From a virus: a stretch of DNA of 30,002 nucleotides. Below are positions 23,900-30,002 of the stretch, piece by piece. The DNA lies in IMG/VR virus record IMGVR_UViG_3300048922_000430, positions 1-30,002 of that record. One strand, 5' to 3'. The position numbers and the translations under genes were made by a program. Numbering within the stretch: position 1 is the first letter of the stretch; each line of letters starts with the position of its first letter. The notes below the pieces were generated by a model, which did no database searches, was not told the DNA's origin, and saw nothing but the letters and a program-made list of their open reading frames with translations.

Positions 23900-25600
23900 A
23901 TGAAACCTGTAAAACGTCTTTACCTGTCCGGTGACGAAGTGCATGCCGCTGATGTGAATATCGTGCTGGAGCTGAGCAGCTGCGGGCGGGGGTTTATCAC
24001 CGCCGCAACGGAGCAGGATTACACCGGCAAAATGGTGCGTCTCGATATTGGCTATGGTGAGTCACTCTTTCGCTGGTTTACCGGCTATGTTGAGCGCTCC
24101 CAGCCTGCGGAAAAGGGCTTTTCACGCCTGTTTGTGCGCGAGCTGTCCGGGGTGTTTGAAAAGCTGTGGCCATGCTCTTTCCAGCACCCCACGCTGCGCG
24201 ATATCACCGCCTGGCTGACGGAAAACAGCGGCCTGACGGTGGCCGTGCCGGATGCAGGGTACAGTGACAAGCCCGTGCCCCATTTCACGCATTCAGGCAC
24301 CGGGTTCCAGCTGCTGAATAATCTGGGCAAGGCCTTTGGCGTGGCGGATTATCTCTGGTATCAGCTGCCGGATGGCTCGCTTTACACCGGCGGGGCGGAA
24401 AAGTCCCTCTTTGCTGCGCGCCCGGTGGATATCCCGCATGAATTCAGCCAGGCAGCGGCGGGGGGCAACAGCATGACGCTGCCTATGATCCAGACAATGC
24501 GCCCCGGTGTTGAGATGAACGGCGAGCGGGTGACGAAAGTCAGTCTAACCGGCGACACGATGGTTATCACCTGGACGCCGCGCGACAGAGCCACCGGCGC
24601 GCCCCTGCAAAAAACACCGGCACAGCGGCAGATAGAAAGCCATTTCCCGGAGCTGGCCAGCGGTATGCACCTGCCTAAGTTTGCGCGGGTGATGGCCGCG
24701 AGTGAACCGGCTAGCAGCGGGAATTTTGCCGATCCATTCCGGCCACGTTATGCCGTCGATGTGCAGCTGCTAGACGCAGACGGCAAGCCCGACAGCGGTA
24801 CGCCGGTTTATTGTGCCGTGCCGCTGCCCGTGCCAATGGCCGGGAATGATTCGGGCATGTTCCAGTTTCCGCCCGAAGGGACGCTGGTAGAGGTGGCTTT
24901 CACCGGCGGCAGGCCGGATAAGCCGTTTGTGCGCCAGACCGTGCCGGAGGGCACAAGCCTGCCGGACGTGAAGCCCGGCGAACAGCTGCAACAGCAGCGC
25001 GCCGGGGTATCGCAGCGGGTGACGCAGGGCGGTGACTGGGAGCGACAGACGGATCAGTCAATCCGCGAAACATCCATGTCCCGCCACGTTCAGGCCGACA
25101 CCGAAACCCGCGAAATGGTGACGCGTGAAACCACCATTAAAGCCACGGACAAGACCACCGTACTGGGAACAGCCACCCTGATGGCCGGGCATATCCAGCA
25201 TGTGACCAGCGGCGATTATGCGATGGCCACCGGCGGGAAATACGTGGCGAGTGTGGCAGGCGATGCCGAAACGGAGATTGCCGGGAAACAGTCAACGAAA
25301 GTGACCGGCGGGATCAGCATTGAAACCAGCGGCGCACTGACTGAAAAGATTGCCGCGCTGCGCAAATCCGTGGCCGCCGGCGGTCAGCAGCTGATGGGGG
25401 AAACCGTGCATATCGGCAGCGAAAGCATTAATGCGCTGGCCATGATGCTGGACACCATCGATTTGCTGGCAGAGCTGGCGCAGCAGTGTGCCAGCCACAC
25501 CCACCCCGGCACCGGTGCACCGGCCAGTGCGAGCGCCTTTACGCAGGTGGCCGCCAGGGCGGGGCAGACCCGCAGCAAATACCAGAAGATAATCGCCTGA
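23900..25600 (+). CDS. Fused baseplate hub and spike protein (gpD-gpV-like)
   Basis: This 566-residue protein combines what P2 makes as two proteins, the hub gpD (387) and spike gpV (211). Residues 1-310 have the hub pattern (RLYLSGDEVHAADVNIVLEL near the start, then SGTGFQLLNNLGKAFGVADY). Residues 315-360 form an OB-like module (FQFPPEGTLVEVAFTGGRPD). Residues 370-500 are a repetitive, threonine-rich strand region likely to make a beta-helix spike. Near the end, ASHTHPGTGAPAS includes H533-T-H535, the HxH metal site seen at spike tips. A VgrG-like trimer is expected. It is the final gene of the late operon. Confidence 0.85.
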   Translation: MKPVKRLYLSGDEVHAADVNIVLELSSCGRGFITAATEQDYTGKMVRLDIGYGESLFRWFTGYVERSQPAEKGFSRLFVRELSGVFEKLWPCSFQHPTLRDITAWLTENSGLTVAVPDAGYSDKPVPHFTHSGTGFQLLNNLGKAFGVADYLWYQLPDGSLYTGGAEKSLFAARPVDIPHEFSQAAAGGNSMTLPMIQTMRPGVEMNGERVTKVSLTGDTMVITWTPRDRATGAPLQKTPAQRQIESHFPELASGMHLPKFARVMAASEPASSGNFADPFRPRYAVDVQLLDADGKPDSGTPVYCAVPLPVPMAGNDSGMFQFPPEGTLVEVAFTGGRPDKPFVRQTVPEGTSLPDVKPGEQLQQQRAGVSQRVTQGGDWERQTDQSIRETSMSRHVQADTETREMVTRETTIKATDKTTVLGTATLMAGHIQHVTSGDYAMATGGKYVASVAGDAETEIAGKQSTKVTGGISIETSGALTEKIAALRKSVAAGGQQLMGETVHIGSESINALAMMLDTIDLLAELAQQCASHTHPGTGAPASASAFTQVAARAGQTRSKYQKIIA

Positions 25601-26231: not shown

Positions 26232-26525
26232 GGATCGATAAAATTTTTCAGTTTCTATTTTCTACAAAACAGACCGCCAGCCCGCGCCAGTGCCGAGCTC
26301 TGCCAGAAAATCGAAATTGAAAAGATTGAAAAGAATTTCAGTGTTTTTCAGTTTTGAGAATTATATTGAGATTGTGTATGTTTTTTAAGTGTTTGAAATT
26401 TATGTTTTTTAATTGTTTTTCGTGGGGCGTGCGATCTTAAAAAGCAATACGATATTGTCATATGAGTTGAATTTTTCCTGTTGGCATGTAAATAAATAGA
26501 TGGGTGAACTGAAAATACATGAAAT

Positions 26526-26550
26526 TGAAGCCTCTAATGAGGCCCCAATT
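26526..26550 (-). terminator. Possible terminator of the HEPN-like gene
   Basis: GCCTC (26530-26534) and GAGGC (26539-26543) form a hairpin directly after the stop of the leftward gene. Outer TTG and CAA extend the stem across a mismatch. On the minus strand it is followed by TTCAATTTC, a weak T-tract. Confidence 0.5.
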
Positions 26551-27792
26551 TTAAAGTTCAAAATAGAGGAATTCTGGCGATTGCGATTCAAATAAGTATT
26601 GAAGATGTATTTCAATAAACCATAGTGCAACTATTTTTAAAGTTAATTTGTTACATAAATGTACGAATCTAGTATAACTTATATCTCTTTCTGCCCCTGT
26701 TCCTCCACTCCTATATTTTATAATTTCACCATCGTGCCAGATAGACGCATGATGTGAACCGTTTCTAATAGTCGATTCTAAATCATTTTCACAAAACGGG
26801 GCCATCAGCGGACTGTCTTTAAAAGGATTGCTCTTGTTCTCTTTGCTTACGTCCTTAATGTATTTATTTAAGGTCATTGACTTAAATTGATCGAAGGCTC
26901 TACCATCGAGTATGTTATTTATACATGCTAATATAGTCATGTTTGAAGTTAAAGTTTCATAAGCATCCCCATAATAGTTTTTTATAGAGTCAAAGTTCTT
27001 TGAGCTAATAATTAGGTTGTCGATTTCATCATGGGATATACGTGCATAATAAATCAATTGTCCGAAATGGTCTCGATTGGACATGAATGTCGATAATATA
27101 TTAATATACCTTTGCAGGTTTTCATGTTTCAGACTTTGTTTATAGAACTGATAGAATGTATTAAGCTTTCCTTCCACTTTCAATCTGTCTAGTTCTGAAA
27201 GTATAGGTTCTGCAATATCAGGAGCAAGGGGGTAGTGCAATTTAGTAAGAAACTCATGCAGCAAGGTTAAATACGAATATTTTTCATTTTTTAAATAATA
27301 AATGCCGTCTTCATTTCTTTTTTTCATATATAATTTTGCAATATTGACAGCTTTGTCAGGTTTATTATTGTTGATCATTTGTAGGCCCGTTTTTAACTGA
27401 GACCATTTGCTGGGTGCGTTTGGCATATCAAATTCATGAGATATGCTTACCATACGCTGTCCAGGACTGACTTTTATATGCGGATGTAATAATCTTATCA
27501 TGTCCATTGAGGCAAATTTCATTGGATCATGCAGATCATTTTTATCAAATGCACAAGCAGGATGGAAATTTATGATTGTCAGTTCCCTGTCTGAAATTTG
27601 AGGGATTATCTCACAATTGCTTACTACTTCAATAATAGCTTCAGGGGGAGTTGCTCTTACAGCTACAACTATAGGTAAATAACAATTAATACAGTCCAAA
27701 TAATGCTTTTGATAACCGTCAAGTCCCACCCCGATCCGAACTCTATATTTTTCATCGCATGATGAACATTTTATATACTCAGTTATAACCAT
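26551..27792 (-). CDS. Zinc-ribbon and HEPN-like protein, candidate defence moron
   Basis: This 413-residue protein is encoded leftward, outside the phage operons, in DNA far richer in A and T than the prophage core, which suggests a separate origin. The N-terminus has two CxxC pairs (C9/C12 and C34/C37), a zinc-ribbon layout. The middle is helical, with a repeat-like stretch near KAVNIAKLYMKKR. The C-terminal part has LESTIRNGSHHASIWHDG: R343-N344-x3-H348 fits the R(N/D/H)xxxH active site of HEPN ribonucleases, followed by YTRFVHLCNKLTLKIVALW, a helix often placed after it. HEPN proteins are common in phage defence and toxin systems. No partner antitoxin gene is next to it. ATG 27792 has AAAGGA nine bases upstream. 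The function is inferred. Confidence 0.72.
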   Translation of the reverse strand: MVITEYIKCSSCDEKYRVRIGVGLDGYQKHYLDCINCYLPIVVAVRATPPEAIIEVVSNCEIIPQISDRELTIINFHPACAFDKNDLHDPMKFASMDMIRLLHPHIKVSPGQRMVSISHEFDMPNAPSKWSQLKTGLQMINNNKPDKAVNIAKLYMKKRNEDGIYYLKNEKYSYLTLLHEFLTKLHYPLAPDIAEPILSELDRLKVEGKLNTFYQFYKQSLKHENLQRYINILSTFMSNRDHFGQLIYYARISHDEIDNLIISSKNFDSIKNYYGDAYETLTSNMTILACINNILDGRAFDQFKSMTLNKYIKDVSKENKSNPFKDSPLMAPFCENDLESTIRNGSHHASIWHDGEIIKYRSGGTGAERDISYTRFVHLCNKLTLKIVALWFIEIHLQYLFESQSPEFLYFEL

Positions 27793-28170
27793 TCTTCAAT
27801 CCTTTTCTGAATTAATTGTATATAGTGAATAAATTAATCAGTATTTTTCTGAAAATGCAAACTTTTCCCTAAGATACACCGAAGCAATTTAGCGCTTGAT
27901 GATTTTTCTCATTTTTTCGATTAGGCATTCGGGAAAACATGAGTAAATAAACCGCAGCGTAAGATATTAACGATAACGTCGAAGCAAAAAATGAGACGTA
28001 AGTACATGGTTTATAAAAAATTTCAGACATGTGATGGGATTGGATAGGTAAAAACAACTTTGAATAAAAATTCTTTTAGTTGGATAAGAAGCTCTGTCGC
28101 CATTTTGTCGCCTGCGGGATGTTGGGTATAAGTTAAGTGATTGATTGTGAAGGCTATAAAAATTATTCAA
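27793..28170. other. Non-coding junction, probable location of the right attachment site
   Basis: This AT-rich stretch separates the last prophage gene from the ybjL terminator. It holds the upstream region of the leftward HEPN-like gene, with a TATACA-like -10 near 27823 on the minus strand but no clear -35. Small leftward frames at 27869-28057 and 27967-28236 lack ribosome sites. The prophage right end (attR) should be here or just beyond, but with the left end out of view the core repeat cannot be defined. No tRNA gene is present. Confidence 0.5.
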
Positions 28171-28214
28171 CAAAAAACCCATCAACCTTGAACCTAAGCG
28201 GCGGGGTTGATGGG
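28171..28214 (-). terminator. ybjL terminator hairpin
   Basis: CCCATCAACC (28178-28187) and GGTTGATGGG (28205-28214) form a perfect 10-bp inverted repeat. On the minus strand it is followed by TTTTTTG, so it terminates ybjL transcription about 100 bases after its stop codon. Confidence 0.85.
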
Positions 28215-28316
28215 CTCCACAATCGGGGGACATCAAAGAAAAGCAGTGGCACTAGTTATGACTGACACCCCACAAAAAAGTTCTGCGTATAAGCGAAATA
28301 TTTCTTAGCTTCGGAG

Positions 28317-30002
28317 TTATCCGAGTCCTGGCCAGATAATGATGATCAATGTCCCGGCGAGGGTAAGCAGCACGTTGGCGATGGCGTAGGTGCCAGCATA
28401 GCCCAGCGCGGGGATGTTGCTGCGCGCGGTATCGCTGATGATCTCCATTGCCGGTGCGCAGGTGCGTGCGCCCATCATCGCGCCGAAGAGCAGGGCGCGG
28501 TTCATTTTCAGCACGTAGGCACCAAACAGGAAGCAGATCAGCACCGGCACCAGGCTGACAAGTAATCCGGCGATCAGCATCTGTCCGCCGACAACACCAA
28601 GGCCGTTTCCGATGCCGCTCCCGGCGCTTAAACCGACCCCGGCCATAAACACCATCAGGCCGAACTCTTTCACCATCATCAGCGCGCCCTGCGGGATGTA
28701 ACCAAACGTCGGGTGGTTCGCGCGCAAGAAGCCGAGCATGATGCCAGCGAAGAGCAGACCGGCGGCGTTACCGACGCCGAAGCTGAAGGAGCTGAACTGG
28801 AAGGTGATCATGCCGATCATCAGGCCGACGATAAAGAAGGCGCAGAAGGCGAGCAGGTCGGTCACCTGGCTGTGAATGGAGATAAAGCCGATGCGGTCAG
28901 CGATAGTTTTCACACGCCGCGCATCGCCGCTCACCTGCAACACGTCCCCTTTGTTGAGCACGATATTGTCGTCGATGGGCATCTCAATCTGGCTGCGGAT
29001 CACGCGGTTGAGGAAGCAGCCGTGATCGGTCAGCTTCAGCTGCGCCAGGCGGCGGCCGACCACATTGTGGTTTTTCACCACCACCTCTTCGGTGACGATG
29101 CGCATATCCAGCAGGTCGCGGTCGAACACCTCTTTACCGTTACGGAAGCTCGGGTCGAGGCGCGCATGGGCATCCGGGTAGCCGACCAGCGAGATCTCAT
29201 CGCCCATCTGCAACACCGCGTCCCCGTCCGGGTTGGCGAGAATACCGTTGCGGCGAATACGCTCGATATAGCAGCCGGTCTGGCGGTAGATCCCCAGCTC
29301 GCGCAGATTTTTGCCATCTGCCCAGGCCACCAGTTCCGGCCCGACGCGATAGGCGCGGATCACCGGCAGGTAGACTTTGCGGTGAGCATCGGTATCCAGC
29401 CCGCGCTCGCGGGCGATCTGCTGGGCGCTGGTCTGCAAATCCTGATGCTGTAACTTCGGTAAGTAGCGGGCGCCAAAGATCAGGCTCACCAGACCAATCA
29501 GATACGTTAAGGCGTAGCCGAGGCTGAGGTTGTCCAGCGCGCTGGCAAGCTGGCTGCTCTCCATACCCGAGTGGCGCAGCGTATCGCCCGCGCCAACCAG
29601 AACCGGCGTCGAGGTCATCGAACCGGCGAGCATCCCGGCGGTTAAGCCGATATCCCAGCCGAAGAGTTTGCCGAGACCGAGCGCAATCAACAGCGCGCTA
29701 CCGACTAATACCAGCGCCAGCATCAGGTAATTCTTACCGTCGCGGAAAAAAATTGAGAAAAAGTTAGGTCCGGCTTCGACGCCAACGCAGAAAATAAACA
29801 GCATAAAGCCGAGGTTCAGGGCATCGGTGTTAATGCTGAAATGTTGCTGGCCTAATAATAAAGAAACGACTAAAACGCCAATAGAATTACCCAGTTGGAT
29901 AGATCCCAGTCGTAATTTTCCAAGGCAAAGCCCAAGCGCCAGAACCACAAACAATAACAGTATGTAATTCCCATTTAACAAATCTGCGACGTTTATATTC
30001 AC
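28317..30002 (-). CDS. ybjL: YbjL-type putative transporter (AAE family)
   Basis: This 561-residue inner-membrane protein matches E. coli YbjL in length and closely in sequence ([45 protein letters not shown] at the C-terminus). It belongs to the aspartate:alanine exchanger family. Residues 1-185 are a first set of membrane helices, residues about 205-375 hold two cytosolic TrkA_C (RCK_C) domains (for example [20 protein letters not shown]), and residues 380-561 are a second set with the conserved [12 protein letters not shown]. The substrate is not established. The GTG start (30000-30002) lies exactly at the window edge, so the frame is complete but nothing upstream is visible. This is the host flank of the prophage. 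Confidence 0.95.

Follow-up and report, generated by a model that had tools for sequence, protein, structure and literature searches.

A single-gene cargo cassette of an ESSI-2-like prophage encodes a predicted zinc-ribbon HEPN ribonuclease with a plausible role in anti-phage defense

Near the right end of the window (the whole 30,002-nucleotide stretch of viral DNA analyzed here), an AT-rich gene (26551 to 27792, minus strand) encodes a 413-amino-acid protein, P0001, in which an N-terminal zinc ribbon is combined with a C-terminal domain that, judging from its predicted structure, is almost certainly a HEPN domain. The conserved residues indicate that the protein is very likely an active RNase, and we propose that it probably functions as a stand-alone zinc-ribbon HEPN RNase in anti-phage defense, through abortive infection or superinfection exclusion. 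HEPN RNases themselves are already known, and the protein represents a new family-level variant of them. The enzyme prediction is strong; the defense role, which is drawn from the cargo slot and from the defense neighbors of cellular homologs, is plausible, and we infer that the gene is expressed in the lysogen.

The window represents a Peduoviridae prophage in an enterobacterial chromosome, closest to Cronobacter phage ESSI-2 and Escherichia ESSI2-type phages and integrated at rybB-ybjL. The last conserved late gene, encoding a baseplate protein (phrog_2258; 23900 to 25600, plus strand), forms the left border of an AT-rich cargo slot (26356 to 28090), in which our gene is the only one; conserved phage DNA stops at about 26355. 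As a likely attR core, GCTCTGTCGCCATTTTGTCGCC (28091 to 28112), follows the gene, together with the host sRNA gene RybB (28169 to 28247, minus strand) and host ybjL (28317 to 30002, minus strand; 81% identical to that of E. coli) on the host side of the junction, the gene is part of the prophage and sits between its last late gene and attR, in agreement with the right-end location originally predicted. The 22-bp sequence, considered a likely att core by comparison, also occurs in two P2-like prophages integrated next to RybB in E. coli; it reads GCTCTG(T/C)CGCCATTTTGTCGCC, and one E. coli copy has a further mismatch at its start. The left end of the record falls inside or just before cI, and the left and right att repeats are not comparable. 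The 3' side of rybB (28091 to 28169) appears to be an attachment region for both ESSI-2-like and P2-like prophages, which have this core in common; in E. coli S171-1, a P2-like prophage beside rybB-ybjL carries a reverse-transcriptase-domain gene in its ogr-attR slot (L037:1611-2381).

Several basic properties of the gene were also as first described. It is transcribed convergently with the late operon, its GC content is 33.7% versus 57.4% in the late region, and its open reading frame, which is backed by full-length homologs, contains the reported residues. A 13-pair hairpin does overlap the stop codon (26522 to 26551, minus strand), but its U-tract is weak, so that the terminator of its own attributed to the gene is only a possible one. 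The dN/dS ratios of 0.03 to 0.20 in close homolog pairs support purifying selection on the gene.

The protein can be divided into three parts. The zinc ribbon (residues 1 to 67; 27592 to 27792, minus strand) contains the CxxC pairs C9/C12 and C34/C37, has weak matches to Pfam zinc-ribbon families, including a weak one to Elf1, and in VIA-align comparisons of residues 1 to 69 is similar to ribosomal zinc proteins of the S27e type and to spliceosome subunits (Z of 3 to 6). A mostly helical central linker region (residues 77 to 215; 27148 to 27564, minus strand) is, according to the model and the alignment, the least conserved part. The HEPN domain, delimited by predicted structure matches, comprises residues 217 to 402 (26587 to 27144, minus strand) and contains the predicted catalytic Rx4H motif, R343-N344-G-S-H-H348 (26749 to 26766, minus strand). 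In a random protein of the same composition, 0.20 CxxC and 0.10 R[NDH]xxxH motifs are expected, versus two and one observed.

An alignment of 31 sequences, reaching 16% identity and including sister-family proteins from Leclercia, Rhizobiaceae, Enterococcus, and Streptomyces, has only 11 invariant columns: C9, C12, R19, C34, C37, Y274, E279, N293, R343, N344, and H348. As the four cysteines and R343, N344, and H348 are invariant at this depth, a chance occurrence of the motifs can be excluded, and the conservation of R343 and H348, on which the original prediction depended, is confirmed. Among a smaller set of 24 C-terminal domains, R343, N344, S346, H347, and H348 are all invariant; S346 is replaced by T in the L052 homolog. 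H347 is not retained in the sister family (phrog_13366), and the Rx4H motif therefore has H348, rather than H347, as its catalytic histidine. The invariant R343-x4-H348 spacing falls within the Rx4-6H range of HEPN domains, and the polar residue (N, D, or H) expected directly after the arginine is the invariant N344. An upstream acidic residue, common but not universal in HEPN domains and typically part of an Ex3[KR] motif (PMC3710099), is present as the invariant E279 (26956 to 26958, minus strand), a predicted active-site residue by analogy with the same source, which lies in helix 273-284 and has no K/R at +4.

Structure prediction is consistent with this assignment. The AlphaFold2 model of the full-length protein, built from a 21-sequence alignment, had a pLDDT of 92.3 and a pTM of 0.92. 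As Foldseek searches of the whole model against PDB and BFVD returned nothing significant, the HEPN region was modeled alone (pLDDT, 90.6); a Foldseek search with this domain model likewise gave no match at E < 0.001, and a PDB sequence search with the protein returned no relevant match. In VIA-align comparisons of the C-terminal domain model, however, HEPN proteins made up 11 of the 12 best chains (7ae6, 8xeh, 8yuf, 6m6w, 5yep, 6m6u, 7bxo, 8xdj, 4nqf, 8jbb, and 8jh1; Z of 5.9 to 7.5, values that are modest in that unrelated helical bundles can reach a Z of 7 by chance); these include HepT toxins, 4nqf, and Thermus thermophilus Csm6. Lower matches included HepS of the Salmonella Gifsy-1 prophage (9oij; Z of 5.1) and AbiV (9bj7; Z of 4.5). 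The HEPN call is therefore based on the run of HEPN structure matches together with the invariant active site, and both the four-helix bundle and the zinc ribbon-HEPN combination of the original prediction are supported at the level of the predicted model. In this model, the motif sits at the end of helix 340-347, followed by strands and by helix 373-402, as expected for a position at the end of helix 3 and before helix 4. The long hydrophobic helix noted earlier after the motif is thus present, but as the model assigns residues 373 to 402 to the HEPN bundle, where they form its final helix, a reading of this segment as a membrane anchor was rejected.

None of the models in Pfam, NCBIfam, and PADLOC covers the 413-amino-acid protein, and no Pfam HEPN model matched it. 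P0001 had no match to any system model of PADLOC-DB 2023, where ten relatives gave only weak partial matches and a match to a SEC-C tail. An Enterococcus faecalis plasmid protein with the same zinc-ribbon/HEPN layout (L042:3001-4365) carries an additional SEC-C metal-binding motif at its C terminus. An NCBIfam TomO match (E = 0.008) covering a similar stretch was too weak to use. The closest catalogued group is phrog_13366, a family of unknown function with plasmid proteins of Leclercia and Yersinia ruckeri and with Rhizobiaceae members, which is colinear over its full length with an N-terminal zinc ribbon and a C-terminal RN..H HEPN-type motif. Its PHROG profile matched P0001 at E = 3.2e-6 and the best relative at 9.8e-12, with partial coverage, and a profile-profile alignment (hhalign) of the two families extended over 368 columns (E = 1.3e-29) with the motifs in register. 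We treat it as a sister family, as its members differ in sequence (about 16% identity), in motif (RNxIAH versus RN[GA][ST]HH here), and in forming a separate tree branch. A TBLASTN search of phage records with a sister-family protein found nothing.

With established HEPN RNases (HepT, Csm6, and AbiV), the protein has in common the predicted helical bundle, the Rx4H motif with N after R at a helix end, and the upstream acidic residue, and the beta-hairpin after its motif resembles that described for Csx1 (PMC3710099); it differs from them in that it has a zinc ribbon at the N terminus and a central region of its own, and lacks a CARF domain and an MNT partner. A zinc-ribbon-HEPN fusion, Npun_R5629, was listed previously (PMC3710099). 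HepS of Gifsy-1 (PDB 9oij), a prophage for one gene of which a HEPN prediction has been published (PMC9879122), is likewise prophage-encoded, and its VIA-align match extends over 134 residues, but its chain of about 190 amino acids is too short to accommodate the zinc ribbon and central region, and the PDB sequence search revealed no sequence similarity to it. ApeA is likewise a single-protein HEPN defense system, but it has a beta-rich N-terminal domain of about 300 amino acids instead of a zinc ribbon and helices; membership in that family was rejected, the HEPN_Apea model (PF18739) having no match at E <= 10. Going by its description only, one of the E. coli systems reported by Vassallo et al. 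(2022) has the same zinc-finger/ribonuclease architecture and validated anti-phage activity; none of the PADLOC models, among them at least PD-T4-5 from that study, matched the present family.

HEPN domains with Rx4H-type motifs are metal-independent endoRNases that are common in abortive infection (PMC3710099). By analogy, we hypothesize that this single-gene prophage cassette encodes a zinc-ribbon HEPN endoribonuclease whose HEPN domains would dimerize, so that R343, N344, and H348, with E279, may make up a metal-independent RNase site where the two partners meet. Control would fall to the zinc ribbon and the helical central region, which would keep the enzyme off and may sense infection or bind target machinery. 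Upon infection by a rival phage, the enzyme would cut tRNA, mRNA, or rRNA, and the resulting stop in translation would block the rival, providing abortive infection or superinfection exclusion to the benefit of the resident prophage.

Full-length homologs (20 to 60% identity) have a sporadic distribution that includes Proteobacteria, Cyanobacteria, Campylobacterota, Planctomycetota, phages, and plasmids. TBLASTN detected four full-length relatives on alphaproteobacterial plasmids (22 to 26% identity). With P0001 as a single-sequence query, relatives were not found in viral contigs or phage records and an alignment was needed; profile-guided scans of viral contigs and genomes added relatives from cyanobacteria (38 to 39%), Campylobacterota, Planctomycetota, relatives of Burkholderiales, and Sphingomonas. 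Homologs were present in 3 of 398 Sphingomonadaceae genomes, in 1 of 218 genomes of the Dulcicalothrix family (Dulcicalothrix being the one match), and in 1 of 369 in the sample of the Nitrococcus class, that one being the center genome itself. The Nitrococcus mobilis homolog is split by a transposase gene (L028:6056-8429) and is thus probably a pseudogene. Related late DNA occurs in 492 E. coli genomes, and only one of 5,426 has a DNA-detectable homolog of the gene. The enterobacterial proteins group with cyanobacterial ones in the tree with full support, a placement at odds with species relationships that points to horizontal movement.

Some cellular homologs have defense genes as neighbors. 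In Rhizobium C104, Lamassu LmuB and ABC-3C genes are directly upstream on the same strand, with DRT8 farther upstream; the Sphingomonas homolog adjoins an ABC-3C-type cluster (PDC-M68B/DUF2326), that of a cyanobacterial MAG a BsuBI/PstI-type type II restriction-modification system, and that of Nitrotoga a gene for a GIY-YIG-type (T5orf172) protein matching PDC-S57. These are single loci rather than an enrichment over a null, and several cellular homologs have no recognizable defense neighbor.

In P2-like prophages, defense genes are carried in two slots, one of them flanked by the replication and portal genes (PMC9122126, PMC9519451). Homologs occupying the corresponding place elsewhere, which the original prediction suggested seeking in other prophages, were found in two other ESSI-2-like prophages, both about 59% identical to P0001 and in the identical slot and orientation. 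In E. coli MFDS1016424 (locus L059), the prophage is at mntR and the homolog (59%) is alone in the slot, whereas in the corresponding prophage of E. coli mip270_05, also at mntR, the HEPN gene is replaced by one for a PIN-domain protein. The host DNA of these two strains is 98.4% identical up to L059:8153, their phage DNA is 80 to 83% identical, and homology breaks off on both sides of the cassette (L059:8153-9797). The PIN-domain protein (470 amino acids; L038:8024-9436) is annotated and uncharacterized, and its gene is a candidate conflict gene. Other ESSI-2-like phages and prophages have acyltransferase-type genes near the att end, indicating that this is a general cargo slot rather than one reserved for defense.

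The same observations bear on the alternatives. The HEPN RNase might instead have a regulatory job in the lysogen, processing RNA or dampening translation through action on RNA of the host or of its own phage, while the ribbon docks on the ribosome or RNA polymerase. The likeness of the ribbon to S27e-type ribosomal zinc proteins and, weakly, to Elf1 would suit such a role, as would the lack of a partner gene, but we consider it unlikely: the sporadic occurrence in Sphingomonadaceae and the Dulcicalothrix family, the swapping of cargo, and the defense-gene neighbors are all more in keeping with an accessory conflict gene than with a housekeeping regulator.

That the protein is the toxin of a HEPN-MNT-like toxin-antitoxin pair stabilizing the prophage is quite improbable. 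Its nearest solved folds are the HepT toxins of such pairs, and VapBC-type pairs lie near some homologs; however, no antitoxin partner accompanies the gene, which is alone in its slot both here and in MFDS1016424, and membership in HEPN-MNT systems was rejected for want of an adjacent MNT gene. In the third prophage, a degraded relative (L006), the 59%-identical homolog is followed 28 bp downstream by a gene for a possible ADP-ribosyltransferase-like protein (L006:1264-2052), recognized by motifs identified by eye and without a Pfam or PADLOC match; an obligate partnership was rejected, as neither the window nor L059 has this gene. Finally, some HEPN domains lack RNase activity (PMC3710099), but a catalytically dead protein that binds RNA or protein is very improbable here, given that neither the acidic residue nor any member of the R-N...H set varies in the deepest alignment.

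We therefore retain the stand-alone defense RNase as the preferred reading. A bolder and rather doubtful extension is that the family exemplifies a widely scattered and hitherto undefined class of such RNases, in which an N-terminal zinc ribbon of the ribosomal or transcription-factor type would deliver the HEPN domain to translating ribosomes or transcribing polymerase, and infection-altered machinery, rather than a partner or a second messenger, would trigger cleavage. What emerges is a HEPN family not yet catalogued, whose active site can be tested and whose one-gene form turns up repeatedly in this cargo slot of related prophages. At mntR in E. coli, the two paired prophages, one with a HEPN gene and the other with a PIN gene, provide a natural swap for experiments, and the slot between the baseplate gene and attR of ESSI-2-like phages is a further place to seek swappable conflict genes.
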